This document shows, in pieces, positions 4,979 to 53,410 of a stretch of 64,000 bases of DNA. This DNA is from Costus lasius. Its lineage: Eukaryota; Streptophyta; Magnoliopsida; Zingiberales; Costaceae. The notes beneath the pieces are model-generated. The model did not search any database. It had not been told where the DNA came from and worked only from the letters and a program-made list of their open reading frames with translations. The position numbers were made by a program, and so were the translations under genes. Position 1 is the stretch's first letter. The number at the start of each line of letters is the position of its first letter. Location: the NCBI GenBank assembly GCA_027563935.2, contig CM050449.1:57801949-57865948 (forward strand), in the 5' to 3' direction.

Positions 4979-6682
4979 TGAAGAAACCCCTTAAACAAGG
5001 GGGGCAAAAAAACCCTAGTCATGGCGCTAATGAAAAATATGCTAGCGGAAGCAAGGGTTTAAGATCATTTGCATGCCATATGTTCAACTATAACCGATTG
5101 AATAGATTGAGAGGGAAATTCATACCAACGCCATATGCTTGGAAGTCGGCTTGGATGAAGAGAACAAATTAGATCTCCTCCACAAGTTCACACACAAGAT
5201 GAAGATGCTTACTCCTTGCGGTCCCTTGTGCTAGCAAGACACCCAACCTTTTCTTTTGTCGAATGGAAAGGGGGTGATGAGATGATTCCCTCTTGGCCGA
5301 GAGCTCCTCTTGCCAAAGCTCCTCTCTTTTTCCGATCGCCCAACCAAAGAGCTAGGCGTTGAAGCAAAGAGCAAAACGCATATGCGTTTTTGGCGTTGGA
5401 GCAAAAACCGGTTTGATTACTTACCATAAATGGAAGACAATCAAGCCATGCGTTTAAGCCAACCCTAAAACGCCTATTGACATTGAACCAAGCGTTCACC
5501 TTTGTGAACCGGTTCAATCCAATAACGTCAAATCGACTTTGGTTCTTCAAACCAAACCGAAATAGCTCAAGCCACTTGGTCTAGACCAAATCGAACCCCA
5601 AGGCTCATGATCTAACCATTCATCTCCTGATGCCCCTGATCTCTTCGATCTAGCATCATCTCTCTCGATCGAAGCTTACCGATCTCAAGTCCTAATCAAT
5701 CAAACATGATCAGACCAGATCTCACTTACAATCAGAGATTAAATCCCTCTAATCTGAACTCAAAGAATTCAGTCCATACGATCTGACTCAAGTAAGCCAT
5801 ATCACCAAATTGTGCGACCCTGAGGGTTTCCTCTAAATGTCGGTAACGATAACTTACGTTATCACGATCAGTGAGGGGTATCTAGCAACACATCACTGTC
5901 TCCCGATATAAAGGAAAGAGTCTTCCAAGACTACTCCCAAACCATAGCACAAGTGTGAATCAAACTCACAAGGCATACATGTATCCTTTGCCACTGGACG
6001 TTCTTATTGGACAAGCATGTCAAGCCTGTAACTCCAATACGATGAGCATGATTAGATCAGATGAACATAGTCATCTGGGTATGGCCATACACTTCCTCAA
6101 TCATCTCATATAGGGGGGGCCCCTTAGAACATCACACTCCTTGAACAAGGAGACGGCAATCCTTTATCTATCACAAGTGCCCTAACCTGACTCAAGCTCA
6201 CCATCCAAGATAGTCTATAATCATTATGTTTCAAATGATATTGAACTACCTCAAGACAATGACAATCATCATTTAGAAACACAAGTGATCTCAAGTCAGA
6301 GGACATGTGCCACTTGCTGCTTACAGGGATCATTCACATCGTGACAAGCAATGGAATATCCCAGTAGGGTCTGTCCAGTACATCCAATGTACCTATGAGT
6401 CTACATCTTATTCCATGCTCGAAGCATCCTATAAGATTAGCACTCATATTAGTCTCAATCATATCAAGGCTGTCTCAGTTCACCAAGATATCTCGACTAA
6501 GGACTTATAGCCTGTCAGCCTAGCTGAACAGCTTTGAGACATTATTCAGAAGTACACTTATTACAGCAGACAAGGTAACAATCTGAATAACAACCATGCC
6601 TTTATAAACACAAGAGTTTATTACATGATACAGTTTATAATCCCAAGGCCTCAAACATTAGCCTTAAGGGCATACCCCAACA
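4979..6682 (-). mobile_element. Solo LTR (copia family 2), minus strand
   Basis: Reads TGAAGAAACC at the left and GGGCATACCCCAACA at the right, the reverse complement of a family-2 LTR. Length 1704 bp equals one LTR with no internal region. It is flanked by TAATA on both sides (4974-4978 and 6683-6687). The host LTR2 sequence is continuous when the insert and one TAATA are removed. Its U5 carries the conserved exon-like triplets at 5126-5134 and the palindrome at 5848-5863. It most likely formed by recombination between the two LTRs of a former full element. Confidence 0.92.
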
Positions 6683-7775: not shown

Positions 7776-9017
7776 TGTTGGGGTATGCCCTTAAGGCTAA
7801 TGTTTGAGGCCTTGGGATTGTATAAGTATCATGTAATAAACTCTTATGTTTATAAAGGCATGGTTATTATTCAGGTTGCTACCTTGTCTGCTGTAATAAG
7901 TGTACTTCTGAATAATGTCTCAAAGCTGTTCAGCTAGGCTGACATGCATATGTCCTTAGTCGAGATATCTTGGTGAACATGAGACAGCCTTGATATGATT
8001 GAGACTAATATGTGTTCTAATCTTATAGGATGCTTCGAGCATGGAATAAGATGTAGACTCATGGGTACATTGGATGTACTGGACAAACCCTACTAGGATA
8101 TTCAATTACTTGTCACAATGTGAATGATCCTTGTAAGCACCAAGTGGCACATGTCCTCTGACTTGAGATCACTTGTGTTTCTAAATGATGATTATCATTG
8201 TCTTGAGGTAGTTCAATATCATTTGAAACATAATGATTATAGACTATCTTGGATGGTGAGCTTGAATCAGGTTAGGGCACTAGTGATAGACATAGGATTG
8301 CCGTCTCCTTGTTTAAGGAGTGTGATGTTCTAAAGGGGCCCCCCTATATGAGATGATTGAGATAGTGTATGGCCATACCCAGATGACTATGTTCATCTGA
8401 TCTAATCATGCTCATCGTATTGGAGTTACAAGCTTGACCCGCTTGTCCAATAAGAACATCCAGTGGCAAAGGACACATGTATGCCTAGTGAAGTTGATTC
8501 ACACTTGTGCTGTGGTTTGGGTGAAGTCTTGGAAGACTCTTTCCTTTATATCGGGAGACAGTGATGTGTTGCTAGATACCCCTCACTGATCGTGATAACG
8601 AAAGTTATCGTTACCGACATTTAAAGGAAACCCTCAGGGTCGCACAATTTGATGATATGGCTTACTTAAGTCAGATCGTGTGGACTGAATTGTTTGGGTT
8701 CAGTTTAAAGGGATAGAGGCTCTGATTGTAAGTGAGATCTGGTCTGATCATGTTTGATTGATTGGGACTTGAGATCGGTAAGCTTCGATCGAGAGTATTG
8801 ATGCTAGATCGGTGAGATCAAGAGTATCACGAGATCAACGGTTAGATATTGAACCATTGGTTCAATGAGATCTAGACCATGGCTTGGGCTGGTTTAATTT
8901 GGTTCTTGAACCAAATTGAAATGGATTGAAGTGGCTTGAACCGGTTCACAAGGGTGAACGCTTGGTTCAAGGGGTTAGGCGTTTTGGTTCGGTAATGGGC
9001 GCATAGCTTCATCTCTT

Positions 9018-9027
9018 CCATTTATGG
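9018..9027 (+). promoter_or_regulatory. CArG/TATA-like box, candidate core promoter of B
   Basis: CCATTTATGG fits the CC(A/T)6GG MADS-box consensus and may equally be a degenerate TATA element. The same position in other copies reads CCATTTATGG (solo LTRs at 4979 and 12426), CTATTTTTAG (G and the solo LTR in G) or CTATTTTTGG (D). No ATG lies between this box and the ATG at 9310 in B, which suits a start site just downstream. The transcription start is not known. Confidence 0.35.
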
Positions 9028-9309
9028 AAAGTATTGAAGGCGACTTCACCTTAACGCCAAAGCGTTTTGAACGCTCGACTTCACTCCTCTCTTCTCAACG
9101 TTCATCCTTGGAGGTGAGGGCATTCGGACGAGAAGAGGAGGAAGGTTGCTCTCGCCAAGCTTGATCTCCAAATCTCCTTCACGCGACAAGGGATACTTTG
9201 GAGCCTTGCTAGCACAAGGGACGTTCAAGGTGTAGGCCTTCTTCTTCTTGTGTGCGATTCCTTTGGAGAAGTTCTCTTTGAACTTTGCTTCCAAGCCGAC
9301 ATCCGATCT

Positions 9310-9324
9310 ATGGCATTGGTATGA
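9310..9324 (+). other. Candidate LTR-encoded start codon and splice donor (gag exon 1) of B
   Basis: ATG-GCA-TTG is followed at once by GTATGA. All nine LTR copies reaching this point show ATG-GCN-(A/T)TG-GTA(A/T). They lie at 5126-5134, 9310-9318, 12567-12575, 18421-18429, 18794-18802, 24825-24833, 32226-32234, 57260-57268 and 63530-63538. The second codon varies only at its silent third base (A, G or T). The matching acceptor is at 11274 and the join is in frame with gag. Without splicing the frame stops after GTA-TGA. Splicing is inferred, not observed. Confidence 0.55.
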
Positions 9325-9495
9325 TCACATTCTTGATCTAATGAAATATTATAGTTGATCATATGAGCACATAAGCGATTGAATTCTTGAAACCCTAGCA
9401 AAATGCATGCGCCCCCTTTAAGGGTTTTCGGCCCCCCCCCCTCTTGAAAGGGGTTTTTAACCGCTTGCGCTCCCCCTTGAAGGGGACCCTTCAAT

Positions 9496-9507
9496 TGGTA
9501 TCAGAGC
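9496..9507 (+). other. Primer binding site of B
   Basis: TGGTATCAGAGC, two bases after the LTR end, is complementary to the 3' end of initiator-Met tRNA, the usual primer of plant copia elements. Confidence 0.9.
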
Positions 9508-10756
9508 TTAGGATCTTATATGATTCATATGATTGCTATGTATGTTTTGTGATCCATATATGTTTGATGCTTAGATCTATGTTTTCTCTTCATGCGATTA
9601 TACTAGTGGATAGTATGTTCATGTTGCGCATGTATGAGAGTTATGTTGTGTTGGCGCTAGTTGAATGGCGCATGTATGATGATTGCGCTTCTTTCATGTT
9701 GTTGTAGTTGTTTTTCTTAAAAACCCTAAATGACATGCGCGCCTTGCATATTAGATCTAAGCCGCACCTACAATAAACCCTTAGATGGGTTGATGGGGTT
9801 GAAGTCACCTCTAGATTAGATCCAATAGTCTGATCAGACCATCTGACAGCCTAGATGGATCGACCAGATGGCACCTGTGCGCAAGCATGAGGTGGCCATA
9901 GGTCGATCACACCTTAGGCGTGTAGCGAGGTCTGGTTGAGACAACCAGTGAACACACATGAGCTAGGCCCGGGGTCACACCCGCTTGCCAGAACTCATGA
10001 GGGTTGTTCAGCCCTTGGTGCATGCATGGTTGACCATTAGGTCAACACGGGTCAGTTAGGACTCGGTGCATGCAAGGGCAGAGGATCTGATTAGATGGAT
10101 GAGTTGATCCCTATCAATGTACCATTGTAAGGATGTAGGGGCACATAAGGAAATTAAAATTGATGCCATGGGGTTTTCAAAAATTTAATTTCATGATTGG
10201 ATCACATGTTGATTGATGCCATGATGTTTGTTTATTTAATCTTATGTGGGTTGCCCTAATGTGTGCTGTGCTGGGGCCTGCGTGCCTGGAATTAAACTTG
10301 TAAATTAATTTGTGATCTGCGAATCACATTTGTACTTAATTTATAATGTATAATTGACCTGCGAGTCAAACTTGTCTAGATAGATCAAATTGTATTTGAT
10401 TAGACAAGAGCACAAAGGCACACATCCAAGAGGGGCTTTCAGCTGGTGGCGCACCTGAGGTGCTCTTGGCGCTAGGGCCCTGGGTTGGACCAGATGAGAT
10501 GCAAAAGTCCCAAGAAGAGCAAGTGAAGACTTAAGTTTCTTAAGGTCTTACTTAGGCTTTGGGCTTTTACCACATAAGATGCATGCTTTCTTTTTATTGC
10601 TTATATAATTAGAACTGCATGAGTTTATCTTCTGCTATCACCATAGGACTTGCATGATAGTGAAGAAGATAAAAGACCGTTAAAATCCAAACGCTAACAT
10701 ATCAAGCTCGTAAGCCTTCTGACGCGAAACCTCACTGTTCTGATTATCGTTGGAGC

Positions 10757-10784
10757 CGTGTTGTACCCACTCAGTGGGCACGTC
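10757..10784 (+). promoter_or_regulatory. Leader hairpin 1 of B
   Basis: The inner stem-loop CCCAC-TCA-GTGGG is closed by CGTG/CACG with a TTGTA bulge on the 5' side. It is conserved in C (20224-20255) and D (30784-30818, minus strand). A candidate dimerisation or packaging structure in the genomic RNA. Confidence 0.6.
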
Positions 10785-10961
10785 CATCTATCTTCAGACG
10801 GTGCTGGATTTCACCTGCGTGTTACAGAGAAGGGATTTATCACTTCTCGTTGCTCAGCATAGCACGTGGTGGTCCAGGGAGTAGGTCGGGTCAGCTTGAC
10901 CATGTAGACTACATATGTGGCGCATATGGTAGCACATGGAGGCAGCCATCTGAGGGATCAG

Positions 10962-10996
10962 AGACTGTGTTGTACCAACTCAGTTGGCACAGTCTG
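10962..10996 (+). promoter_or_regulatory. Leader hairpin 2 of B
   Basis: The same architecture as hairpin 1 with one covarying pair: inner stem CCAAC-TCA-GTTGG, TTGTA bulge and an 8-bp outer stem AGACTGTG/CACAGTCT. Copies lie at 20432-20466 in C and 30574-30608 in D (minus strand). Confidence 0.65.
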
Positions 10997-11274
10997 CTGG
11001 ATTGCCCAGGTGAAGGGGAATCGCATGGGTTGGCGATTGGCTGGGACAGCCTACCAGAAATTAGTGCTTGTCATCTCTGTGCATCTTATCTCGCCTGAGC
11101 GGGACGCGGAGACCAAGTATGAAATCTGGATCCCATCTCACTAAAAGAGTGTTACTCTTTCGGACTGTTTACTGGATTTTTCAGTCAGATAAAATAGTGA
11201 GAAAAAGAATCTTTCTTAAGTCCTGATTGATTCTTAACATTGATACTGACCTTGCTGTTCTTGCATTGTTGTAG

Positions 11275-12425
11275 ATTCCTGCAGCAACGAACACAATGAG
11301 CTTCAATGTGCGATCCCTACTGGAAAGGGAGAAGTTTGCTGGGCCGAACTTCTCTGACTGGTTCGGACACCTTAAGATCGTTCTTAAGGCAGAGAGGAAA
11401 CTGTATGTCCTCGAGACGGCTGTGCCGCCGCAGCCCGCTCCGAACGCCGCAAGGGCGGTTCGGGATGCCTATGAAAAGCACGTCAATGATAGCATTGATG
11501 TCGCTTGCCTGATGCTAGCGTCTATGACGCCACCGCTGCAGCGTCAGCATGAGGATATGTCGGCTATAGAAATTATAGCGAACCTCAAGATGCTATATGC
11601 TGCACAGGCGAGGACAGAATGCTATAATCTGACGAAGCTCTTCTTTCAGAGCAAACTGGCTGAAGGGAGCCCAGTGGGAGCTCACGTGCTCAAGATGATT
11701 GGGCACAAGGAGGCTCTGGAGAAACTGGGGCATACCATCAACCAGGAGCTTGCTGTAGACATAATTCTACAGTCTCTTCCGCCTTCTTTCGATGCGTTCA
11801 TCATTAACTTTAATATGAACAAAATCGATTGTACTCCGGCAGAGCTGTTGAATATGCTCTTGACTACTGAGGAAACTCTGAAGGGAAAGCCTTCAACCTC
11901 TGTCTTATTGGTTCCCTCAAGGAACAAGAAGAAGGGGAAGAAGGGCAAGGCCCTTGTCAAGAACTATAGTAAGGCTCTGAAACAGAAGGTAAAGCGGTCG
12001 AAGGACAACAGGTGTTTCCACTGTGGCCAGCTGGGTCACTGGAAAAAGGACTGTAAAGCGCTCCAAGGAGATAAGAGGGGAAGCATCGCTTCTGGCTCAG
12101 GTATATATGTGACTGAGGTCATGTTATCTTCTTCTACCATATCATGGGTGTTGGACACTGCATGTGGAGTTCACATTTGTTCAAATGTACAGGAACTCAA
12201 GAGAAGAAGGCAGGTGGGACAGCATGAGGTAGACCTAAGCGTTGGAAACGGGGCACGGGTTGCTGCTGTTGCTGTAGGAGACTATTTCATTTCTTTACCA
12301 TCTGGCATTGTATTGGAATTAAACAATTGTTATTTTGTACCCAGTATTACCAAGAATATTATCTCTATTCCTGCTCTTGTCAGGAAAGGATTTGCCTTTG
12401 AATGCAATATTTCAAAGTGTGTTTT
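11275..12425 (+). pseudogene. Element B gag and protease start (5' part of split gag-pol)
   Basis: Gag-pol opens at ATG 11296, or seven codons upstream at 11275 if spliced from the LTR. It encodes a copia Gag followed by a basic Lys-rich stretch, one CCHC zinc knuckle (CFHCGQLGHWKKDC, about 12012-12053) that binds RNA, and the start of protease with LDTACG in place of the usual D-S/T-G. The reading frame breaks at 12425 where a minus-strand solo LTR is inserted after GTTTT; its continuation is at 14112. Apart from the insert, the frame is continuous and has no stop, about 1294 codons in total. Gag would form the virus-like particle in the cytoplasm. Confidence 0.88.
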
Positions 12426-14106
12426 TGTAGGAACCCCTAATAAGGGGGGGGGGGGGAAACCCTATACATGCGCATCTAGCATGCAATGCGGAAAAAGGGC
12501 TTCTAAAGATCGCATATGAACTATATAATCAACTTAAACCAACTTAAGATCATGATATGATCTTACCATTGCCATGGATGGAAGGCGGCTTGGAAGAAGA
12601 AAACAAGGTTGATCTCCTCCAAAAGGTGCGCACACAAGAAGACAAAGACTACTCCCTTCTCAACTTTGTGCTAGCAAAAGCTTCAAGGGGTCTTATCGCA
12701 TGAAGGAGATGATGAACTCTTGGCCGATCTTTCTTCTCGTCACTTTCACCACACAAGAAAGTGTGTGTCGTCGAGAGCAAGATGATGGAGAGGAGCGTTA
12801 GCCAAACTTGTGATCGAATGTGGAGACATTCATCACAATTGTCAAACCGAAATGCCATAAATGGCAAGTCATCAAAGCTTGCGTTATGCGTTCACATGAA
12901 GTGAACCAAACGCATAGCTCTCCTCTCACATGAACCAAGCGCTCACATGTGAGCCGGTTCAATTCAATTGGTCCAATGACCAAACCAAATCAGCCCAATA
13001 ATCGGTTCAGACCAAATTAAACCCTAAGGTTCAAAATCTGACCGTTCATCCTTTTAATGCTCTTGATCTCTTCGATCTAGCATCCACACTCTCGATCTAA
13101 GCTTACCGATCTCAAGCCCTAATCAATCAAACATGATCAGACTGGATCTCACTTACAATCAGAGTTTAATCTCCTTTAAACTGAACTCGAACAATTCAGT
13201 CCACACGATCTGACTTAAGTAGCCATATCATCAAATTGTGCGACCCTAAGGGTTTCCTTTAAATGTCGGTAACGATAACTTACGTTATCACGATCAGCGA
13301 GGGGTATCTAGCAACACATCACTGTCTCCCGATATAAAGGAAAGAGTCTTCCAAGACTCCACCCAACCACAGCATAAGTGTGAATCAACTCACTAGGCAT
13401 GCATGATTCCTTTGCCACTGGATGTTCTTATTGGACAAGCATGTCAAGCCTGTAACTCCAATACGATGAGCATGATTAGATCAGATGCACATAGTCATCT
13501 GGGTATGGCCATACACTTCTTCAATCATCTCATATAGGGGGGGCCCTTTAGAACATCACACTCCTTAAACAAGGAGACGGCAATCCTTTATCTATCACAA
13601 GTGCCCTAACCTGACTCAAGCTCACCATCCAAGATAGTCTATAATCATTATGTTTCAAATGATATTGAACTACCTCAAAACAATGACAATCATCATTTAG
13701 AAACATAAGTGATCTCAAGTCAAAGGACATGTGCCACTTAGTGCTTACAAGGATCATTCACATTGTGACAAGCAATGGAATATCCGAGTAGGGTCTGTCC
13801 AGTACATCCAATGTACCCATGAGTCTACATCTTATTCCATGCTCGAAGCATCCTATAAGATTAGCACTCATATCAGTCTCAATCATATCAAGGCTGTCTC
13901 ATGTTCACCAAGATATCTCGACTAAGGACATATAGCCTGTCAGCCTAGCTGAACAGCTTTGAGACATTATTCAGAAGTACACTTATTACAGCAGACAAGG
14001 TAACAACCTGAATAATAACCATGCCTTTATAAACTTAAGAGTTTATTACATGATACTTATACAATCCCAAGGCCTCAAACATTAGCCTTAAGGGCATACC
14101 CCAACA
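12426..14106 (-). mobile_element. Solo LTR (copia family 2) inside gag-pol of B, minus strand
   Basis: The left end TGTAGGAACCCC and right end CATACCCCAACA give the reverse complement of a family-2 LTR, 1681 bp. It is flanked by GTTTT (12421-12425 and 14107-14111). Removing the insert and one GTTTT restores the protease-integrase linker frame seen in the relatives. A G-homopolymer sits near its left end. The exon-like triplets are at 12567-12575, followed by GTAAGA, and the palindrome at 13274-13289. Confidence 0.93.
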
Positions 14107-14111
14107 GTTTT

Positions 14112-16866: not shown

Positions 16867-16886
16867 ATTAAGTGCAAGTGGGAGAT

Positions 16887-18606
16887 TGTTGGGGTATGCC
16901 CTTAAGGCTAATGTTTGAGGCCTTGGGATTGTATAAGTATCATGTAATAAACTCTTATGTTTATAAAGGCATGGTTATTATTCAGGTTGCTACCTTGTCT
17001 GCTGTAATAAGTGTACTTCTGAATAATGTCTCAAAGCTGTTCAGCTAGGCTGACATGCATATGTCCTTAGTCGAGATATCTTGGTGAACATGAGACAGCC
17101 TTGATATGATTGAGACTAATATGTGTTCTAATCTTATAGGATGCTTCGAGCATGGAATAAGATGTAGACTCATGGGTACATTGGATGTACTGGACAGACC
17201 CTACTAGGATATTCAATTACTTGTCACAATGTGAATGATCCTTGTAAGCACCAAGTGGCACATGTCCTCTGACTTGAGATCACTTGTGTTTCTAAATGAT
17301 GATTGTCATTGTCTTGAGGTAGTTCAATATCATTTGAAACATAATGATTATAGACTATCTTGGATGGTGAGCTTGAATCAGGTTAGGGCACTAGTGATAG
17401 ACATAGGATTGCCGTCTCCTTGTTTAAGGAGTGTGATGTTCTAAAGGGGCCCCCCTATATGAGATGATTGAGATAGTGTATGGCCATACCCAGATGACTA
17501 TGTTCATCTGATCTAATCATGCTCATCGTATTGGAGTTACAAGCTTGACCCGCTTGTCCAATAAGAACATCCAGTGGCAAAGGACACATGTATGCCTAGT
17601 GAAGTTGATTCACACTTGTGCTGTGGTTTGGGTGAAGTCTTGGAAGACTCTTTCCTTTATATCGGGAGACAGTGATGTGTTGCTAGATACCCCTCACTGA
17701 TTGTGATAACGAAAGTTATCGTTACCGACATTTAAAGGAAACCCTCAGGGTCGCACAATTTGATGATATGGCTTACTTAAGTCAGATCGTGTGGACTGAA
17801 TTGTTTGGGTTCAGTTTAAAGGGATAGAGGCTCTGATTGTAAGTGAGATCTGGTCTGATCATGTTTGATTGATTGGGACTTGAGATCGGTAAGCTTCGAT
17901 CGAGAGTATTGATGCTAGATCGGTGAGATCAAGAGTATCACGAGATCAACGGTTAGATATTGAACCATTGGTTCAATGAGATCTAGACCATGGCTTGGGC
18001 TGGTTTAATTTGGTTCTTGAACCAAATTGAAATGGATTGAAGTGGCTTGAACCGGTTCACAAGGGTGAACGCTTGGTTCAAGGGGTTAGGCGTTTTGGTT
18101 CGGTAATGGGCGCATAGCTTCATCTCTTCCATTTATGGAAAGTATTGAAGGCGACTTCACCTTAACGCCAAAGCGTTTTGAACGCTCGACTTCACTCCTC
18201 TCTTCTCAACGTTCATCCTTGGAGGTGAGGGCATTCGGACGAGAAGAGGAGGAAGGTTGCTCTCGCCAAGCTTGATCTCCAAATCTCCTTCACGCGACAA
18301 GGGATACTTTGGAGCCTTGCTAGCACAAGGGACGTTCAAGGTGTAGGCCTTCTTCTTCTTGTGTGCGATTCCTTTGGAGAAGTTCTCTTTGAACTTTGCT
18401 TCCAAGCCGACATCCGATCTATGGCATTGGTATGATCACATTCTTGATCTAATGAAATATTATAGTTGATCATATGAGCACATAAGCGATTGAATTCTTG
18501 AAACCCTAGCAAAATGCATGCGCCCCCTTTAAGGGTTTTCGCCCCCCCCCCCCCTCTTGAAAGGGGTTTTTAACCGCTTGCGCTCCCCCTTGAAGGGGAC
18601 CCTTCA
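16887..18606 (+). repeat. 3' LTR of element B
   Basis: 1720 bp, starting TGTTGGGG after the polypurine tract and ending CCCTTCA before the CTTCA target duplication. Differences from the 5' LTR that I found: GACAGACC vs GACAAACC, GATTGTCA vs GATTATCA, GATTGTG vs GATCGTG, and one base plus length in the C-tract. Confidence 0.93.
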
Positions 18607-18918
18607 CTTCACGCAAGGAAGAGAAATTCAACCAGCCAAGGGCGCACATCATCCTTTGAAGAAACGATCAGGACTCCTTGGTGTCTTTGCTAGCACAAGG
18701 AACACAAAGGAAGAAAGTCTTTCTCATCTTGTGTGTGACTTCTTTAGAGAAGAGGCGCTCGCCCCTTACATCTTCCAAGCCGCCTCTTACATCATGGCAA
18801 TGGTAATACTCTAACTTGCTCTATACAAGGTTGATCATGTGCTCATGTCATGCGATTGTTTAGAATCCTATTCTTCATGCGGCTTGTTGTAGTCGATTGC
18901 ATACTAGAATATCTCTCA
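18607..18918 (+). repeat. LTR2, segment 3 of 3 (end of the 5' LTR of element C)
   Basis: Continues LTR2 after B and its CTTCA duplication and ends ATCTCTCA before the primer site. It holds TTGCTAGCACAAGG (18687-18700) and the triplets ATG-GCA-ATG at 18794-18802 followed by GTAATA. The three LTR2 segments sum to about 1.63 kb. Confidence 0.9.
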
Positions 18919-20742
18919 GTGGTATCAGAGCCAGGTTGTTTGACTTGATGCATATGATTGCCTTCTTGTGATCCATGCTTAAGTTATTGGGTAGATCTTG
19001 TTTATGTTCACATGCGACTACATGATGCACATGTTTACATACTTGCTTGCGCATGTGATGTTAGATGAATCTTAACATACATAATTTGCGCGTATGTTGT
19101 TTTTCAAGCAAAATTATCTTCATGCGTGACTCCACTAGATCTATTAGTGCGCCTACTTCTAACACTTAGACGGGTTAACAGTTTTGAAGTCGTTAGTCAA
19201 GTATGGACCCAACAGCCTAATCGGACTATCTGACAGCCTGGATGGGTGGCTGGATAGCACCTGTGCGCAAACTGTACAGGTGGCTATAAGCCGACTGCAG
19301 AAGGGCGTGTAGCGATGTCTGTTTGAGGCGCCTAGTGAACGATCATGATTATGGCCCGGGGTCACACCCGCTTGCCGGAGATCATGTGGGACGTTCAGCT
19401 CTTAAGGCATGCATAGTCGACCATTGGGTCGACGCAAGTCAGTTATGACTGGGTGCGTGCAAGGGCAGTGGGTCTGACTTGGTCTGACGAGTGGATATCT
19501 GTTAATGGACCGTTCTAAGGTAGTGGGGCACATAAGGAAATAAAATTCATGCCATGGGCTTTTCTAAAATTTTATTTCTGTTTGGATCACATGTAGTACA
19601 TGTTTAACATGTTGCATTGAGTATATTGAGTGTTTATTTAATCTTATGTGGGTTGCCCTATTTTGTATGCTGTGCTGGGGCCTGCGAGCCTGGAAATTAA
19701 TATATTTGATGTGATCTGCGAGTCACATTTGAAATTATATCAATGTATAATTGACCTGCGAGTCAATCCATGTCTAGATAGTTTTTAAAATGTAATTTTG
19801 AACTGACATGAGAACACAGCACAAATGGCAGAAGCGTTTGCAGCTATTGGCGTCACTAGGTGGGAGGTCTAGAGTTCGACTCTAGAACAGGTGCATTCTG
19901 TCTGGTGGGCGCATTTGAGCTACAGATGGCGTTTGGGGCCGGGCTAGGCCCCATGAAGTACAAGGATGCCATAAAGAGCTCAAATGAAGATTTAAGTCAA
20001 ACTAGGGTTTCACTTATATTTTTTATGGGCGTTTACCACATAAGATAATTGTGCTTTCTATTTACTGTTTTAAGTAATATTAGCACATGTATGTTTTATT
20101 CTTCTGCTATCACTATAGAATTTGCATGATAGTAAGAAGATAAAAGACCGATAAAATCCAACGTCAATATCAAGCTTTCGATTGCCTTCTGACGCGAAAC
20201 CTCACTGTTCTGACTATCGTTGGGGCCGTGTTGTACCCACTCAGTGGGCACGCCTAGCTATCCTCAGACGGTGCGTGATTACACCTACATGCTACAGAGA
20301 AGGGATTTATCGCTTCTCGTTGCTCAGCATAGCACGTGGTGGTCTAGGAAGTAGGTCAGGTCAGCTTGACCATATAGGCTACATGTTGGGCATATGATAG
20401 CTATATGGAGGCAGCCATCTGAGGAATCAGAGATTCTGTTGTACCAACTCAGTTGGCACAGTCTTCTGGATTGCCTAGATGAAGGGGAATCGCACGGGTT
20501 GGCGATTGGTATGGATTGCCTACCAGTGATTAGTGCTTGGGCTCTCTGTGCACCTTATCTCGCCTGAGCGGGATGCGGAGATCAAGTATGAAATCTTGAT
20601 CCCATCTCACTAAAAGAGTTTAACTCTTTCGGGCTGTTTTATTGGATTTTCAGTCAGATAAAATAGTGAGAAGAGAATCACTCTTAAGTCCTGGAATGAT
20701 TCTAACATGGATATTGACCTTGTTGTTCTTGCTATGTTGTAG
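18803..20742 (+). other. Leader of element C, proposed intron upstream of gag
   Basis: About 1.94 kb with no credible protein. It contains the primer site, the paired hairpins (20224-20255 and 20432-20466), a CTAAC branch-point-like site near 20702 and the acceptor-like TTGTAG ending at 20742. Near 19868 a tRNA T-arm-like string with GTTCGACTC (Pol III B-box-like) occurs; D has a diverged equivalent. Confidence 0.5.
18920..18937 (+). other. Primer binding site of element C
   Basis: TGGTATCAGAGCCAGGTT matches the complement of the initiator-Met tRNA 3' end over 18 bases, the longest match of the elements here. It lies one base after the LTR end. Confidence 0.92.
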
Positions 20743-20763
20743 ATTCCTGCAGCAACGAACACC

Positions 20764-23700
20764 ACGGGGCTCAACTTGCGATCCATATTGGAAAAGGAGA
20801 AGTTTGCTGGGCCAAACTTCTCAGACTGGTACAGACAGCTGAATATTGTCCTCAAAGCTGAGTGGAAGCTGTACGTCCTTGAGTCGGCAATGCCGGCTCA
20901 ACCCGCTGTGAACGCCGCAAGGGCGGTTCGAGATGCTTATGAGAAGCACGTCAGTGATAGTACTGATGTCGCTTGCCTTATGCTTGCGTCAATGACGCCC
21001 GAGCTACAGCGTCAGCATGAGGATTTGTCTGCTATTGATATCATAGCAAATCTGAAAATGCTGTATGCTGCACAGGCAAGGACAGAACGCTATAACTTGA
21101 CGAAACTTTTCTTTCATAGCAAACTGACTGAAGGAAGTCCAGTGGGAGCTCACGTACTCAAGATGATTGGGTACAAAGAAGCTCTAGAGAAACTGGGTCA
21201 TACCATCAATCAAGAACTTGTTGTAGACATTATCTTGCAGTCTCTTCCGGCTTCTTTCGATGCGTTCATCATTAATTTTAATATGAACAAAATCGACTGT
21301 ACTCCGGCAGAATTACTGAATATGCTCTCCACAACAGAGCAGACTCTTGAGAAGGGAAAGCCTTCATCCTCTGTCTTGATGGTTCCTTCAAGGAATAAGA
21401 AGAAGGGGAAGAAGGGCAAAGCCCCTATCAAGAGCTACAACAAGGCTTTGAAACAAAAGATAAAGCGGTCAAAGGACAACAGATGTTTCCATTGTGGCCA
21501 ACCAGGTCACTGGAAGAAGGACTGTAGAGCGCTCCAAGGAGAGAAGAAGGGAAGCAAGCCCTTCACTTCTGGCTCAGGTATTTTTGTGATTGAAGTCATG
21601 GTTGCTTCTTCTATTTCATGGGTGTTGGACACTGCATGTGGAGTTCACATTTGTTCAAATGTGCAGGAACTTAAGAGAAGGAGACAGGTGGGACAGCATG
21701 AGGTGGACCTACGAGTTGGAAACGGGGCACGAGTTGCTGCTGTTGCTGTAGGAGAATATCACATCTCTTTACCATCTGGAGTTGTATTAGAACTTGACAA
21801 TTGTTATTTTGTACCAAGCATAACAAAGAATATTATTTCTATTCCTGCTCTTGTCAGGAAAGGTTTTTCATTTGAATGCAAAACTTCACAGTGCTGTATT
21901 TCATATGATAATATTATTTATGCAACTGGGTCGATTAACAATGGGTTATACATGTTGGACATGGAATGTTCTGTACAACAAATTGATAATAAGAAAGCCA
22001 AGTATGCTGATGACAGCACCTTGTTATTGCATAGTCGTCTAGGCCATATTAACAAGAAGCGCATTAAGCGGTTGCATGACTATGGACTGCTGGGATCATT
22101 CTCCTATGAGGAGTTTGACACATGCAAAGCTTGTTTAATGGGTAAGATGACGAAGACTCCTTTTACTAATAAAGGTGAAAGAGCTTCAGGTTTACTTGAC
22201 CTTATTCACACTGATGTGTGTGGGCCATTTAGTAAACATGCCAGAGGTGGCTATTCATACTTCATTACTTTTACTGATGATTTCAGTAGGTATGGTTATG
22301 TCTATTTAATGAGACATAAGAGTGAATCTTTTGACAAGTTCAAAGAATTCAAAAATGAAGTACAGAATCAGTTAGGCCGAAATATCAAAGCACTTCGATC
22401 AGATCGAGGTGGAGAATACTTGGGTCGTGAGTTTACTGACTATCTGAAGGAGTGTGGGATCATCTCACAGCTCACTCCGCCAGGGACACCGCAATGGAAT
22501 GGTGTATCCGAAAGGAGGAATCGAACCTTATTAGATATGGTTCGTTATATGATGAGTCAGGCTACTCTACCTTACTCCTTTTGGGGATTTGCACTGGAAA
22601 CAGCTGCAAAGGTGCTAAACCGAGTGCCATCCAAGGCCGTTTCAAAGACGCCATATGAGTTGTGGTATGGGAAATAGCCGAGCTTGACATTTATCAAAAT
22701 CTGGGGTTGCGAGGCTTATGTCAAAAAGCTCGCTTCTAGGAAACTGGAGAGCAGATCTGATAAATGTATATTTGTCGGATACCCTAAAGAAACTAAGGGT
22801 TATTATTTCTATGATCCCAAAGAGAATAAAGTATTTGTTGCTTGAACGGCAATTTTTCTTGAGAAGGAATTTCTTCTGCAAGACGCCAGTGGGAGAGAAA
22901 TAAAGCTGGATGAAATTCCAGAAGAGGGACAAAGTAGTCAAGCATAGTTGGATGAGCCTGAGCCAATAGATCAGGTTAATGTTCAACCTGAGGCTCAGAC
23001 ATCACGGGAACCGCGTAGATCGGGAAGGATTCGTCGTCAGCCTGAGCGCTATGACGGAGTCTACATCATTAATGATGAACCCCTCACTTATGCGGATGCG
23101 GTTAGTGGACCGGAGTCAGCAAGATGGCTTGAAGCTATGCGAGCCGAGATGGACTCCATGTCAGATAACCAAGTCTGGGATTTGGTTGATCCGCCTCCGG
23201 GAGTAATCCCTATAGGCTGTAAGTGGATCTTCAAAAAGAAGACAAACATGGATGGTAACATGCTTACCTATAAGGGCAGGCTAGTTGCGAAAGGTTTCAA
23301 ACAAATCTACGGGATAGATTATGATGAAACTTTCTCTCCTGTAGCCATGTTCAAGTCCATTCGAATTATTCTCGCGATAGCAGCATATTATGATTATGAG
23401 ATATGGCAAATGGATGTGAAAACCGCTTTCCTTAACGGCAAATTAGAAGAGGATGTGTATATGACACAACCTGAAGGTTTCATTAATCCGTCAGAACGTC
23501 ATAAAATATGCAAATTAAAGAAGTCCATTTATGGACTAAAACAAGCATCGCGAAGCTGGAATATTCGTTTTGATGAATCAGTTTCTGAATTTGGTTTCAT
23601 CAAAAATGAAGATGACCCGTGTGTATATAAAAGGTTTAGTGGGAGCGTGATTACTTTCCTAGTCCTCTACTTCGATGATATTTTAATCATTGGAAACGAT

Positions 23701-24683: not shown

Positions 24684-26360
24684 TGAAAGTTCCCTAAAGG
24701 GGGCGAAACCCTAAAGCATGCGCATATAAAAAACTTGCATGGGCGGAATCTAGGGTTTCCTAGGATCGCATGTATGAACATAGATCAACTTTAATAACAA
24801 GTATTGATCGAGAAGGGATCATACCATAGCCATTGCTTTGGATGGTGACTTGGAAGAAGAGGGCGAGCGGCTCTCCTCCAAAGATGATGCACACAAGGTG
24901 AAGATGACTACTCCCTTGGCGTTCCTTGTGCTAGCAAAGCTCCAAGGTCTCCTGATCGCGTGAAGGAGATTGAGATGATCTCTTGGCTTTGTCAAGTCCT
25001 CTTCTCCTTTGCGTGAAGTCTCACCACATGAGAGAGAGGCGTCGAGACGTGAAGACGAGAATAGGGGCGATCCCTCGAACGTGAGGCGTGCTCCCCATTT
25101 TGGAAAACCAATTTCCAAAAATAGCAAGCCACTACTTCAACGCAAGATGCGTTTACCCCAATCGCAACTTCCTCCCTTGACTTGAACCATGCGCTCACAC
25201 TAAGTGAACCGGTTCAATTACATTTGGTTCAAAGACCAAATTAAACCAAGCCTTGGTCTAGATCAAATTAAACCATAAGGCTTAAGATCTAACCATTCAT
25301 CTCTTGATGCTCTTGATCTCACCGATCTAGCATCAATTCTCTCGATCGAAGCTTACCGATCTCAAGCCCTAATCAATCAAACATGATCAGACCAGATCTC
25401 ACTTACAATAAGAGTTTAAACTCCTTTAAACTGAACCAAAACAATTCAGTCCACACGATCTGACATAAGTAAGCCATATCATCAAATTGTGCGACCCTAA
25501 GGGTTTCCTTTAAATGTCGGTAACGATAACTTACGTTATCACGATCAGTGAGGGGTATCTAGCAACACATCACTGTCTCCCGATATAAAGGAAAGAGTCT
25601 TCCAAGACTACACCCAAACCACAGCACAAGTGTGAACCCAAGTCACTTGACATATGTGTTTCCTTTGCCACTGGATGTTCTTATTGGACAAGCGTGTCAA
25701 GCCTGTAATTCCAATATGATGAGAGTGGTTAGATCAGATGAACATAGTCATCTGGGTATGGCCATACACTTTCTCAACCATCTCATCCAGGGGGCCCCTA
25801 TAGAACATCACACTCCAATCAAGGAGACGGCAATCCTATATCTATCACTAGTGCCCAAACATGACTCATGTTCATTATCCAAGATAGTCTATAACCATTA
25901 TGTTTCAAATGATATTGAACTACCTCAAAACAATGCCAATCATCATTTAGAAACACAAGTGATCTCAAGTCAGAGGAAATATGCCACTTGTTTGCATGTA
26001 AGGATTATTCACATTGTGACAAGCAATTGAATATCCTAAGTAGGGTCTGTCCAATACATCCAATGTACCCATGAGTCTACATCTTATTCCATGCTCGAAG
26101 CATCCTATAAGATTAGAACACATATTAGTCTCAATCATATCAAGGCTGTCTCATGTTCACCAAGATATCTCGACTAAGGACAATACTGCATGTCAGCCAA
26201 GCTGCACAGCATTGAGACATTATTCAGAAGTATACATATTGCAGCAGATGATGTAACAACCTGAATAACAACCATTGCCTTTATAAACATAGAGTTTATA
26301 CACATGAAACTGATATAATCCCAAGGCCTCAAACATTAGCCTTAAGGGCATACCCCAACA
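24684..26360 (-). repeat. 3' LTR of element D
   Basis: The reverse complement starts TGTTGGGGTATG at 26360 and ends GGGAACTTTCA at 24684. Exon-like triplets at 24825-24833, palindrome at 25525-25540. Confidence 0.92.
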
Positions 26361-26380: not shown

Positions 26381-29300
26381 CTAATGGTTGAGAAATCTCA
26401 AACCCATATTATTACAGTGCTTCTCATGCTTCTGCTGCGCCAGAGGTTTTGTAAGCGGGTCAGCTAGATTGTCATCTGTATGAACCTTGCAGACTTTGAT
26501 CTCGCCATGATCAATGATCTCCCGGATCAAGTGAAACCTTCTCTGTATGTGCTTGGACTTCTGGTGCGACCGTGGTTCCTTTGCTTGTGCTATTGCTCCA
26601 GTGTTATCACAGAAGATAACCAAAGGATCTGCACTCGAAGGAACAACACCAAGTTCCTGAACGAACTTACGAATCCACACTGCCTCCTTGGATGCTTCTG
26701 AGGCTGCAACATACTCGGCTTCTGTTGTGGAATCAGCAACAATTGACTGTTTGAAACTTTTCCACACCACTGCTCCTCCATTCAAGCTAAAAACATAGCC
26801 TGATTGCGATCAGAAATCATCCTGGTCAGATTGGAACAAAGCGTCAGTATATCCTTCAATACTGAGTTCTTCCTGACCTCCATATATCAAGAACATATCT
26901 TTGGTCCTCCTAAGATATTTCAAAATGTTCTTGACTGCAATCCAGTGTGCCTTCCCTGGATTACTTTGGAATCGACTGGTCACGCTTAACCCGTAAGCGA
27001 CGTCTGGGCGAGTACACAACATCGCATACATAATGGACCCAGTAGCCGAAGCATAAGGCGTATTGTCCATTTCATCTTTCTCAGTCTGTGTTTGTGGACA
27101 CTGACTCTTTGAAAGATTCAGACCATGTCTGACTGGAAGATATCCTCTTTTAGAATTTTCTAAATGGAATCTCTCCAGGACTTTATCGATGTAAGTACTC
27201 TGGCACAGCCCGAGAAGCCTCTTTGATCTATCTCTGTAGATCTTCACACCTAATACATAGGCTGCTTCTCCTAAATCTTTCATCTGGAAACATTTTCTTA
27301 ACCATGCCTTGACCGCATGTAGTTCAAGAATATCGTTTCCAATGATTAAGATATCATCGACGTAGAGGACTAGGAAAGTAATCACGCTCCCACTAAACCT
27401 CTTATATACACATGGGTCATCTTCATTCTTGATGAAACCAAATTCACATATTGATTCATCAAAACGAATATTCCAGCTTCTTGGTGCTTGTTTAAGTCCA
27501 TAAATGGACTTCTTTAATTTGCATATTTTATGACGATCTGATGGATTAGTGAAACCTCCAGGTTGTGTCATATACACATCCTCCTCTAATTTACCATTAA
27601 GGAAAGCGGTCTTCACATCCATTTGCCAGATCTCATAATCATAATATGCCGCTATCGCAAGAATAATCCGAATAGACTTGAACATGGCTACGGGAGAGAA
27701 AGTTTCATCATAATCTATCCCGTAGATTTGTTTGAAACCTTTCGCAACTAGCCTGCCTTTATAGGTAACCACGTTACCATCCATGTCAATCTTCTTCTTG
27801 AAGATCCACTTACAGCCTATAGGGATTACTCCCGGAGGCGGATCAACCAAATCCCAAACTTGGTTATCTGACATGGAGTCCATCTCGGCTCGCATAGCTT
27901 CAAGCCATCTCGCTGATTCCGGTCCACTGACCGCATCCGCATAAGTGAGGGGTTCATCATCAATGATGTAGACTCCGTCATAGCGCTCAGGCTGTCGACG
28001 GATCCTTCCCGATCTTCGCGGTTCCCGTGATATCTGAGCCTCAGGTTGTTCAATAACCTGATCTACTGGCTCAGGCTCATCCAACTGCGCTTGACTACTT
28101 TGTCCTTCTTCTGGATTCTCATCCAGCTTTATTTCTCTCCCACTGGCTTCTTGCAGAAGAAATTCTTTCTCAAGAAAAATAGCCGTCCGAGCAACAAATA
28201 CTTTGTTCTCTTTGGGATCGTAGAAATAATAACCCTTTGTTTCTTTAGGGTAACTGACAAAGATACATTTCTCAGATCTGCTCTCTAGTTTCCCAGAGGC
28301 GAGCTTTTTGACATAAGCCTCGCAACCCCAGATCTTAATAAATGTCAAGCTCGGCTGTTTCCCATACCATAACTCATATGGAGTCTTTGAAACGGCCTTG
28401 GATGGCACTCAGTTTAGTACCTTTGCAGCTGTTTCCAGTGCAAATCCCCAAAAGGAGTAAGGTAGAGTAGCCTGACTCATCATAGAACGAACCATATCCA
28501 GTAAGGTTCTATTTCTCCTCTCGGACACACCATTCCATTGCGGTGTTCCTGGCGGAGTGAGCTGTGAGATAATCCCACACTCCTTCAGATAGTCAGTAAA
28601 CTCATGACTCAAGTATTCTCCACCTCGATCTGAACGAAGTGCCTTGATATTTCGGCCTAGCTGATTTTGTACTTCATTTTTGAACTCTTTGAACTTGTCA
28701 AAAGATTCACTCTTATGTCTCATTAGATAGACATAACCATACCTACTGAAATCATCAGTAAAGGTAATGAAGTATGAATAGCCACCTCTGGCATGTTTAC
28801 TAAATGGCCCACACACATCACTGTGAATGAGGTCAAGTAAACCTGAAGCCCTTTGACCTTTGTTGGAAAAAGGAGACTTCGTCATTTTGCCCATTAAACA
28901 AGCTTTGCATGTATCAAGCTCCTCATAGGAGAATGATCCCAGTAGTCCATGTTCATGCAACCGCTTAATGCGCTTCTTGTTAATATGGCCTAAACGACTA
29001 TGCCATAACAAGGTGCTATCTTCAGCATACTTGGCTTTCTTAATATCAATTTGCTGTATAGAACATTCCATGTCCAACATGAATAACCCATTGTTAATTG
29101 ACCCAGTAGCATAAACAATATTATCAAAAGAAATATAACACTTTGAAATCTTGCATTCAAAGGAAAACCCTTTCCTGACAAGAGCAGGAATAGAGATAAT
29201 ATTCTTAGTTATGCTCGGTACAAAATAACAATTGTCCAGTTCTAATACAAGACCAGATGGTAAAGAGATGTGATAAACTCCTACAGCAACAGCAGCAACC

Positions 29301-30274
29301 CGTGCCCCGTTTCCTACTCGTAGGTCCACCTCATGCTGTCCCACCTGTCTTCTTCTCTTGAGTTCCTCTACATTTGAACAAATGTGAACTCCACATGCAG
29401 TGTCTAACACCCATGAAATAGAAGAAGATAACATGACTTCAGTCACGTAAATACCTGAGCCAGAAGCGAAAGAGTTGCTTCCCTTCTTATCTCCTTGGAG
29501 CGCTTTACAGTCCTTTTTCCAGTGACCCAGCTGGCCACAATGGAAACATCTGTATTCCTTTGACCGCTTGAGCTTTTGTTTCAGAGCCTTGTTGTAGCTC
29601 TTGACAGGGGCTTTGCCCTTCTTCCCCTTCTTCTTGTTCCTAGAAGGAAACATTAGGACAGAGGATGAAGGTGTTCCCTTCTCACGAGACTGAGTCTGCT
29701 CTGTAGTCAAGAGCATGTTCAGTAACTCTGCCGGGGTACAGTCGATCTTGTTCATATTAAAATTAATGATGAACGGATCGAAAGAGGCTGGGAGAGACTG
29801 CAAGATGATATCTACAACAAGCTCCTGATTGATGGTGTGTCCCAGTTTCTCTAGAGCCTCCTTGTACCCAATCATCTTGAGTACGTGAGCTCCCACTGGA
29901 CTCCCTTCAGTCAGTTTGCTCTGAAAGAAAAGTTTCGTCAAGTTATAGCGTTCAGTCCTTGCCTGTGCAGCATACAGCATCTTGAGGTTTGCTATAATAT
30001 CTATAGCTGATAAATCCTCATGCTGACGCTGCAGCTATGGCGTCATAGATGCTAGCATAAGGCAAGCGACATCAATGCTATCATTGACATGCTTTTCATA
30101 AGCTTCCCGAACCGCCCTTGCGGCGTTCGCAGCGGGTTGAGGTGGTATAGCCGTCTCGAGGACATACAGTTTCCTCTCAGCCTTAAGAACAATCTTAAGG
30201 TGTCCGTACCAGTCTGAGAAGTTTGGCCCAGCAAACTTCTCCCCTTCCAGTAGGGATCGCACATTTAACGCTGT
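26381..30274 (-). pseudogene. Element D gag-pol with three nonsense codons
   Basis: A complete copia polyprotein in one frame on the minus strand: Gag, zinc knuckle (CFHCGQLGHWKKDC), protease (LDTACG), integrase, RT (YVDDIL) and RNase H. In-frame stops: TAG at 30035-30037 (gag), TGA at 28409-28411 (integrase, CGA in relatives) and TGA at 26810-26812 (RNase H, CGA in relatives). The codon aligned with the ATG of B reads ACA. The domains are otherwise well kept, and no frameshift was found. It cannot make a full product now. Confidence 0.9.
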
Positions 30275-30295
30275 GGTGTTCGTTGCTGCAGTAAT

Positions 30296-32225
30296 CTACA
30301 ACATTGCAAGAACAGCAAGGTCAGTATCAATGTTAGAATCAATTCAGGACTTAAGAATGATTCTTTTCTCACTATTTTATCTGGCTGAAAAATCCAGCAA
30401 AACAGCCCGAAAGAGTAACACTCTTTTAGTGAGATGGGATCCAGATTTCATACTTGGTCTCCGCGTCCCGCTCAGGCGAGATAAGATGCACAGAGAGTAC
30501 AAGCACTAATTTCTGGTAGGCAATCCCTGCCAATCGCCAACCCGTGCGATTCCCCTTCATCTGGGCAATCCAGCAGACTGTGCCAACTGAGTTGGTACAA
30601 CACAGTCTCTGATCCCACAGATGGCTGCCTCCATATAGCTACCATATGCTCAATATGTAGCCTACATGGTCAAGCTGACCCGACCTACTCCCTGGACCAC
30701 CACGTGCTATGCTGAGCAACGAGAAGCGATAAATCCCTTCTCTGTAACACGCAGGTGTAATCACACACCGTCTGAAGATAGATTGGCGTGCCCACTGAGT
30801 GGGTACAACACGGCCCCAACGATAGTCAGAACAGTGAGGTTTCGCGTCAGAAGGCTATCGTGCTTGATATTTAACGTTGGATTTTAACGGTCCTTTTATC
30901 TTCTTACTATCATTCAAATCCTATGGTGATAGCAGAAGAATAAATCATGCAGTTACTAAATTACTTAAACAGTAAATTAAAAGCATGATGATCTTATGTG
31001 GTAAAAGCCCATTAAGCCTAAGTAAGACCTTATTTAACTTAAGTCTTCACTTGAGCTCTTCATGGGTCTTTAGCATTTCCTCTGGCCCAACCCGGGCCCA
31101 AGCGCCCACTGCAGCTCATGTGCGCCCACCAGGTAAAATGCGCCTGTCCTAGAGTTGAACCCTAGACCTCCCACTGGTGAAGCCACTTGCTGCATGCGCC
31201 TCTGCCAAGTGTGCTCTGTGCTCATGTCTGATTAAATTACAATTTAATCTATCTAGACATGATTGACACGCAGGTCAATTACACTTTATAAATTAATTAA
31301 AATGTGATGCGCAGATCACAATAATAATTTACAATAATTCATCCAGGCACGCAGGCCCCAGCACAGCACACATTAAATTTAGGCAGCCCACATAAGATTA
31401 AATAGACAATCATTAATGTTATACAAACATCATGTGATCCAATCAAGAAAATAAAATTTTTTGAAAAACCGATTGGCTTCATTTTATTTCCTTATGTGCC
31501 CTACTACCTTACAACGGTCCATTAATAGGGATCCACTCATCAGACCTAGTCAGACCCACTGCCCTTGCATGCACCAAGTCATAACCGACTTGAGTCGACC
31601 TCATGGTCAACAATGCATGCGTGAAGGGCTGAACGTCCCTCATGAGTTCTGGCAAGCGGGTGTGACCCCGGGCCTTAATCATGAGCGTTCACTGGTTGTC
31701 TCAATCAGACATCGCTACACGCCTTTCAGTAGTCGACCAATAGCCACCTCATGCTTGCGCATAGGTGTCATCTGGTCGACCCATCTAGGCTGTCAGATGG
31801 TCTGATCAGACAGTCGGGTTTAGACTGGACGATGACTTCAACCCTAATAACCCGTCTAAGCTTTTGAAGTAGGCGCTTAGATCTAATGAGGGGCGCGCAA
31901 GTAATGTTTTGAGAAAAAACTACAACAAGCGCCAACTACATACATGCGCCAATGTACATCTAATTTCGAAAATAAGCATGTAGTTTCGCATGAAGATAAC
32001 CATTAGATCTACTCTTAAGCGCAAATAAGGATCACTATAAGCAATCATAAGAATCATACAATGAACTATGCCTCTGATACCAATTGAAAGTTCCCTAAAG
32101 GGGGCGAAACCCTAAAGCATGCGCATATAAAAAACTTGCATGGGAGGAATCTAGGGTTTCCTAGGATCGCATGTATGAACATAGATCAACTTTAATAACA
32201 AGTATTGATCGAGAAGGGATCATAC
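30296..32225 (-). other. Leader of element D, proposed intron upstream of gag
   Basis: About 1.93 kb between the donor-like GTATGA in U5 (32220-32225) and the acceptor-like TTGTAG before gag. A TTCTAAC branch-point-like string lies some 45 nt upstream of the acceptor. It contains hairpin 2 (30574-30608), hairpin 1 (30784-30818), a tRNA T-arm-like segment near 31141-31200 and the primer site. No coding sequence is supported. Confidence 0.5.
32072..32082 (-). other. Primer binding site of element D
   Basis: TGGTATCAGAG on the minus strand, two bases inside the 5' LTR end; the match to initiator-Met tRNA weakens after 11 bases. Confidence 0.85.
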
Positions 32226-37840: not shown

Positions 37841-37842
37841 GA

Positions 37843-37854
37843 TGGTATCAGAGC
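37843..37854 (+). other. Primer binding site of element E
   Basis: TGGTATCAGAGC two bases after the LTR end, complementary to initiator-Met tRNA. Confidence 0.88.
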
Positions 37855-53407: not shown

Positions 53408-53410
53408 TTC

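Follow-up and report, generated by a model that had tools for sequence, protein, structure and literature searches.

A putative start codon in the long terminal repeats of a Costus lasius Ty1/copia family and its predicted joining to gag by splicing

How retroelements separate message RNA from genome RNA is an open question; in the family described here, the removal of one leader intron would be enough to keep the two apart. In yeast Ty1 the gag frame begins within the long terminal repeat (LTR) and continues directly, with no splicing. In human immunodeficiency virus type 2 and simian immunodeficiency virus a small intron can be spliced out of the leader, 5' of gag, for which a literature search gave no confirmation. 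Among plant elements, BARE1 belongs to the Angela lineage of Ty1/copia (PMC6317226). The main BARE paper, from 2013, states that, apart from copia itself, splicing in the copia superfamily had been shown for BARE alone, and claims the first demonstration of distinct RNA pools for a retrotransposon (PMC3735527). The account of the soybean element Diaspora states that, as of 2005, no introns upstream of gag had been reported for LTR retroelements (PMC1142308), and the internal splicing described for sunflower elements has a different arrangement (PMC7730604). The DNA analysed here is a stretch of 64,000 nt from Costus lasius (GCA_027563935.2, contig CM050449.1, 57,801,949-57,865,948, forward strand), referred to as the window, whose Ty1/copia elements appear to carry the start codon of gag in their LTRs.

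The LTR motif and its distribution

Nested Ty1/copia elements with LTRs of ~1.7 kb fill part of the window. In three of them, named B, C and D, an ATG in the LTR and two further codons are followed by a donor-like GTA, and a TTGTAG acceptor lies just 5' of gag. Read from the DNA, Gag(-Pol) is very probably translated from spliced RNA, starting at a codon borne by the LTR, with the unspliced RNA serving as genome. The features on which this reading is built are as follows.

7776..9493, + strand: 5' LTR of element B, TG...CA, 1718 bp; the two B LTRs are 99.6% identical
9018..9027, + strand: CCATTTATGG box of B in a TATA-like position; transcription may start near 9050, from where ATG depletion begins
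9204..9219, + strand: hairpin 1 in exon 1 of B, CCTTG-CTAGCA-CAAGG, loop invariant
9265..9292 (span approximate), + strand: hairpin 2 in exon 1 of B, GGAGAAG ... CTTTGCTTCC, with paired GC/AU changes
9310..9318, + strand: LTR start codon of B and two further codons, ATG GCA TTG, proposed end of exon 1
9319..11274, + strand: proposed intron of B, GTATGA ... TTGTAG, containing LTR end, primer site and leader
9494..9507, + strand: ATTGG spacer of B followed by the initiator-tRNA primer site TATCAGAGC, both within the proposed intron
11275..12519, + strand: exon 2 of B, gag frame IPAATNT-MSFNVRS..., copia gag with zinc knuckle and Pol_BBD
18421..18429, + strand: start-donor motif, 3' LTR of B
18794..18802, + strand: ATG GCA ATG of element C, donor GTAATA
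18803..20742, + strand: proposed intron of C
20743..22677, + strand: exon 2 of C, gag-pol frame; codon 8 is ACG, first ATG is codon 50
32226..32234, - strand: ATG GCT ATG of element D, donor GTATGA
30296..32225, - strand: proposed intron of D
28409..30295, - strand: exon 2 of D, gag frame; codon 8 is ACA, ATG occurs first as codon 80, and the frame stops at about codon 87
24825..24833, - strand: start-donor motif, 3' LTR of D
5126..5134, - strand: start-donor motif, further LTR
12567..12575, - strand: start-donor motif in the LTR inserted in the gag of B, donor GTAAGA
57260..57268, - strand: start-donor motif, further LTR
63530..63538, + strand: start-donor motif, further LTR

An earlier note, made from the letters alone, had claimed that nine copia LTRs carry ATG-GCN-(A/T)TG directly followed by a donor, and nine exact matches of ATGGCNWTGGTAW were found in the window. 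No extra match appeared when one mismatch was allowed; at that tolerance the shuffles gave a mean of 1.39 and a maximum of 5. The nine LTRs correspond to seven insertion units, since 9310/18421 and 32234/24833 each pair as the LTRs of one element. The donor variant GTAATA mentioned in the note does exist, but it belongs to the 5' LTR of C at 18794; the LTR at 12575-12563 reads GTAAGA.

The 1.28 Gb source genome contained 42,403 exact matches of ATGGCNWTGGTAWGA, compared with 98 for the reversed control pattern. As LTRs should not be picked by the motif itself, two anchors other than the start-donor motif were used. The first, TTGCTAGCACAAGG, is located ~102 nt 5' of the LTR ATG and has 45,228 genome copies versus 2 in the control. 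Its first 30 loci among the matches listed were taken, giving 20 elements after one LTR had been removed from ten pairs, and the best motif match inside a 70-nt span was recorded. ATGGC-NNN-G|GTA was present at its expected position in 30/30 of these LTRs. Variation was found at the alanine wobble base (A, T, G, C), in codon 3 (TTG, ATG, TCG, CAG) and at donor positions +4 to +6. This pattern matches an initiation codon followed by an alanine codon and a donor site, not a fixed DNA box. The constant ATG-GCN with its silent-base-only change, as described in the note, was borne out (30/30 ATGGC), but outside the window its third codon is not restricted to (A/T)TG, with TCG and CAG occurring as well.

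The second anchor was the primer-site pattern CAATTGGTATCAGAGC (21,995 genome copies, some in other families or broken copies). Its sample consisted of the first 20 places among the matches listed, excluding those already in a set of 34 elements that have the exact motif in both LTRs and lie on contig C1 between 8 and 29 Mb. Ten of the 20 carried this gag, one had the LTR motif with no gag in the piece, and nine had neither. ATGGC-NNG|GT(A/G) was found in 10/10 gag-bearing elements, nine with GTA and one with GTGAGA. Around the motif the LTR is otherwise poorly conserved, with a median pairwise identity of 63% (range 51-100%; 470 nt, 34 elements). The start-donor motif is therefore confirmed as a real, family-wide feature beyond chance. 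As a separate observation, the nine places without this gag or motif, on contig C1, carry the Sirevirus-like junction CAATTGGTATCAGAGC, which must then also belong to broken copies or to a different family.

Acceptor phase, upstream ATGs and the gag N-terminus

The TTGTAG acceptors end at 11274, 20742 and 30296, and a branch-like TTAAC or CTAAC was found in all three of B, C and D, as the earlier note had it. The frames 3' of the acceptor read IPAATNTM (B), IPAATNTT (C) and ITAATNTT (D), which confirms that codon 8 of exon 2 is ATG in B, ACG in C and ACA in D. The acceptor TAG lies in the gag frame, and for that reason 11275 and 20743 are the exact first positions of the stop-to-stop frames. 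With the gag frames of B and C opening right after TTGTAG, an upstream start on unspliced RNA cannot feed gag.

Exon 2 was located at 1796 to 2025 nt from the LTR ATG in the set of 34 elements, with the gag phase kept in 34/34. When the ten primer-site elements and B, C and D are added, donor, acceptor and gag are in phase in 47/47, in line with the in-phase joining that the note had described for B, C and D. The acceptor was inherited from one ancestor, so this result reflects maintenance of the phase. A branch-like CTGAC lies ~25 nt 5' of the acceptor (ATTGAC in C), together with a U-rich tract. By a crude pyrimidine score, the acceptor ranked 1 or 2 among 129-143 AGs in 31/34 elements. The U content was 0.27 in exon 1, 0.31 in the intron and 0.23 in exon 2.

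The sequence before the LTR ATG is strongly depleted of other ATGs. The ATG-free stretch described for B was verified, as none was found between the ATG inside CCATTTATGG (9024-9026) and 9310; a CTATTTTTGGAA-like box is present at about -300 in many other LTRs. The 34 elements together contained 3 ATGs in the 200 nt before the LTR ATG, compared with 64.9 (sd 6.7) expected from dinucleotide shuffles, and 45 in the single 50-nt bin from -300 to -250. Their leaders (1730 nt) held 1624 ATGs versus 1532 (sd 24) in shuffles, or ~48 per leader. For the 20 TTGCTAGCACAAGG-picked LTRs, which overlap with the 34 in some elements, 0 ATGs were counted in 150 nt (29.4 in shuffles) and 3 in 200 nt (40.5 in shuffles), and the complement CAT was in excess over the same 200 nt (97 versus 51.3 expected). 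Their last five 50-nt bins held 5, 3, 0, 0 and 0 ATGs; the lowest of the other 21 bins out to -1300 held 8. With AUG nearly gone from about -250 to the LTR ATG and its complement kept, the stretch resembles a scanned 5' exon. The onset of the depletion fits the TATA-like box near -300 and suggests a cap site ~250 nt 5' of the LTR ATG.

Two small hairpins were recognized in exon 1. In 37 sequences, 27 cells had both sides of a pair changed, compared with 9.9 in shuffles, and the number of further pair types was not above that of the shuffles. The stem-loop of hairpin 1, CCUUG-CUAGCA-CAAGG, is situated ~102 nt 5' of the LTR ATG. Its outer stem pairs show compensatory changes, and a GCUAGC palindrome lies in and beside the loop; it is possibly a dimer or packaging signal. 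Another hairpin, GCACAAG/CTTGTGT, was dropped in favour of the local CCTTG/CAAGG once more sequences had been added.

Codon 8 of exon 2 was ATG in 25, ACA in 7 and ACG in 2 of the 34 motif-selected elements, and ATG in 8 of the 10 primer-site elements (absent in 2). For the nine of the 34 without it, the next in-frame ATG is codon 80; in 8/9 gag was open over the fetched 221-285 codons. The ratio of non-synonymous to synonymous differences (pN/pS) was obtained for 11 ATG-less elements (the nine plus C and D) and for 26 with the codon-8 ATG. It was 0.26 for codons 10-79 and 0.25 for codons 81-150 in the ATG-less elements (pairs dropped 0/55 and 1/55), and 0.14 and 0.13 in the others (0/325 and 25/325). 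Codons 1-7 gave 0.05 in the 26 elements. The N-terminus of Gag in elements without an early AUG looks to be under constraint.

In a nucleotide tree the codon-8-ATG elements grouped as a single clade. When a protein tree was rooted on nine plant homologues, C was basal, the other ATG-less elements branched off after it, and the ATG group was nested (backbone local supports 0.65-0.97). One ATG-less, stop-bearing element, L019, grouped with ATG elements and other broken copies, which was taken as an artefact. From these trees the codon-8 ATG looks like a derived state. The ATG-less form has moved recently, given that the LTR pairs of D and L019 are 99.1-99.2% alike; each has a stop in gag, so foreign help is possible. 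The family seems, on this evidence, to have lived without an AUG early in its gag exon. Among 47 plant homologues (first 110 residues) IPAATNT was found in none, which neither supports nor weakens the proposed LTR start; most begin at their own ATG near an LRS motif, and some N-termini are longer or partial. A search for relatives in viral contigs found none.

The proposed pathway and its alternatives

In the proposed pathway, transcription would start ~250 nt before the LTR ATG, and ribosomes would scan an exon 1 cleared of other AUGs and initiate at ATG-GCN. The moderate donor G|GTA after codon 3 would be joined to the strong acceptor (branch, U-rich tract, TTGTAG) just 5' of gag. Splicing would remove an intron of 1.8-2.0 kb, and with it the leader, the tRNA primer site and whatever part of the LTR follows the donor, yielding the product M-A-x-I-(P/T/S)-A-A-T-N-T-Gag. 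Unspliced RNA would retain the primer site and serve as genome, so that one LTR promoter would give an RNA with two fates, splicing setting message or genome. On that unspliced RNA, the frame from the LTR ATG spans 4 codons in 28/34 copies and 16 at the maximum, while gag is closed off in its own frame by the TAG of the acceptor.

The earlier note's view that spliced RNA makes Gag-Pol and unspliced RNA is the genome is supported at the sequence level. The anatomy is in place, the motif is conserved, the phase is kept in 47/47, upstream ATGs have been purged and the N-terminus is constrained; from these observations we infer the splicing, the cap site, the use of the LTR ATG and the role of the unspliced RNA. 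It is also likely, with somewhat less confidence, that splicing acts as an obligatory switch between message and genome: ancestral Gag would need the primer site cut out, reverse transcription would copy the LTR start codon to both ends, and the GCUAGC hairpin of the same exon might be a pairing signal of the genome RNA.

Several observations weigh against this proposal. The acceptors owe their likeness to common descent, which means that 47 in-phase elements are not 47 independent events. Every copy analysed beyond the window lies within the first 29 Mb of a single contig, and 34 of these copies were picked by the motif in both LTRs. The donor matches only 5-6 of 9 consensus letters, and between 1 and 16 GTs per element score better; a moderate donor would suit the incomplete splicing that the element needs. 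No exact genomic copy of the spliced junction was found in the source genome: with up to 3 mismatches there were 16,751 matches (control 0), none exact, and among the matches listed all were ordinary unspliced acceptors. Such an absence is expected of RNAs that have lost the primer site and are unable to prime, yet it brings no support and is weak evidence. The codon-8 ATG in 25/34 elements could start Gag without the LTR exon. Selection on codons 10-79 is weaker in the ATG-less elements (pN/pS 0.26 versus 0.14), with 25 silent and 24 changing variant codons as compared with 27 and 12 in the codon-8-ATG elements. Across all 37 elements codons 1-7 give a pN/pS of 0.30, not 0.05, because codon 2 varies between P, T and S in the ATG-less ones. 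Finally, two control stretches farther 5' were also below all 200 shuffles in ATG number (94 versus 126.7; 79 versus 107.8), a deficit of only about a quarter, far less than before the LTR ATG.

The codon-8 ATG is central to the alternative of two starts, in which an ancestral spliced LTR start is used everywhere and a derived start at codon 8 is used directly in one clade, perhaps on a shorter or differently spliced RNA. That the codon-8-ATG group is a single clade of the nucleotide tree, comprising 25/34 sampled elements, agrees with it. However, this group keeps the LTR ATG, the donor, the acceptor phase and near-silent codons 1-7 (pN/pS 0.05 over 7 codons), so the long N-terminus is seemingly still in use, and codon 8 may be merely an internal Met; the 34 elements had been chosen for their LTR ATG and donor, which does not apply to the 10 primer-site elements, 8 of which have the codon-8 ATG. 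We regard two starts as rather unlikely. Much less credible is that the LTR ATG opens a short regulatory upstream open reading frame (uORF; M-A-x-V-stop) of the pararetrovirus ribosome-shunt type, with Gag started from the codon-8 ATG on unspliced RNA. The unspliced frame is indeed exactly 4 codons in 28/34 elements, codon 8 is ATG in 25/34, and pararetrovirus leaders are described as placing short uORFs before a structured leader (PMC5902531). Nevertheless, the stop is not kept: GTAAGA, GTATGG, GTATGT, GTAATG, GTAAAC, GTAATA and GTGAGA replace GTATGA, always with the GT donor retained. Moreover, codon 8 is not ATG in 9/34 (7 ACA, two letters off ATG, and 2 ACG), the leader has ~48 ATGs, and the acceptor phase would be meaningless. 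The loss of TGA while the GT donor stays was the chief reason for rejecting this explanation.

The ATG-less elements might instead be start-less parasites packaged by the Gag of others, the LTR motif being a non-coding promoter or reverse-transcription signal. A precedent is BARE2, reported to have lost its gag start and to rely on BARE1 Gag (PMC3735527). Conserved hairpins are present in exon 1, the gag of both ATG-less elements whose LTR pairs were compared (D and L019) is broken by a stop, and the ATG-less group as a whole is under weaker selection. Against this, these elements are basal and diverse, the fetched part of gag is open in all but one of the nine, and their codons 10-79 remain constrained. 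A DNA or hairpin signal predicts neither the loss of upstream ATGs with CAT kept nor a variation confined to the alanine wobble, codon 3 and donor +4 to +6. The tree and the constraint make parasitism highly improbable as an explanation.

Family assignment and comparison with known systems

The order of domains is that of Ty1/copia: the frame at 1723-3945 of the window, the DNA of which is repeated in B and C, has integrase (rve 188-284) before reverse transcriptase (RVT_2 510-721). Both elements have a copia-type gag with zinc knuckle (PF14223, PF00098, PF22936). The primer site TGGTATCAGAGC follows the LTR at 9496 and 18920, and with one mismatch at 32071; pairing of this type of site with the initiator tRNA is described in PMC2829016. 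The Sirevirus junction CA/ATTGG/TATCAGAGC is present in B and C has CTCTCAGTGGTATC, so it is not common to all members. C runs occur near the LTR end, but roughly 45-60 bp away in B, the Sirevirus C-rich signal being at ~21 bp. An enlarged gag as given for Sireviruses (~660 aa, PMC2829016) was not found in the C frame, where the zinc knuckle is at 246-262 and the integrase-side domain begins at residue 401. The long LTR and long leader are no more than suggestive of membership in the Angela lineage, that of BARE1.

Element B (7776-18606) has apparently inserted into an LTR of C, duplicating CTTCA, and its exon 2 is interrupted by the insertion of a reversed LTR, which sits within the gag of B at roughly 12520-14090.

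16887-18606, + strand: 3' LTR copy of B
7771-7775 and 18607-18611: target-site duplication CTTCA of B

Two more LTR pairs, at 34364-37840 / 41858-45331 and 45402-48633 / 53406-56637, were observed, with LTRs of 3.2-3.5 kb that are 99.5 and 99.9% alike and contain tandem repeats of 76, 82 and 86 bp. In the first of these elements, the sole one scanned, pol (38916-41828) has the Ty3/gypsy order of reverse transcriptase, RNase H and integrase. The gag frame of this element (34364-45331) opens ~90 nt past the primer site, unlike that of the copia family.

If the proposal is true, gene finders and annotators would miscall or miss Gag starts in a family with >40,000 copies of the LTR motif, and any LTR of the family could provide neighbouring host genes with a Met-Ala exon and a donor. 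An LTR-encoded gag start joined by splicing was not found in the literature searched, which consisted of titles and abstract openings, with subscription papers mostly outside it.

In the env mRNA of avian sarcoma/leukosis virus (ASLV), six gag codons, beginning with the AUG, are donated by splicing to a downstream frame. The predicted join resembles this case, as the major ASLV donor is reported to lie shortly after the AUG, at nt 397, past packaging signals (PMC7291142, PMC5035971). However, the ASLV AUG is gag's own and lies 3' of the primer site, and its Gag comes from unspliced RNA; here Gag itself would require splicing, with loss of the primer site. The predicted join is also similar to that described for the P4 mRNA of Rice tungro bacilliform virus (Caulimoviridae), where the donor lies within a leader uORF, which is thereby linked to a reading frame far away (PMC5902531). 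The fused frame there is ORF IV and the virus has no LTR, whereas in the Costus family the first and main polyprotein would depend on the join.

Among LTR retrotransposons, BARE1 is likewise described as having an LTR promoter, a leader that is not translated, a spliced Gag RNA and distinct pools of RNA to be translated or packaged; unlike here, its intron is 104 nt long and lies at the end of gag, its pools arise from two promoters, and its gag start follows the leader (PMC3735527). For the Ty3/gypsy element Diaspora, five donors in the LTR and two acceptors around the gag start are reported, but these sites were predicted by software with their meaning left open, and the element has its own gag start (PMC1142308). 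The donation of an AUG by splicing is known as such; what would be new in the Costus family is its location in the LTR, gag itself as the target and the removal of the primer site.

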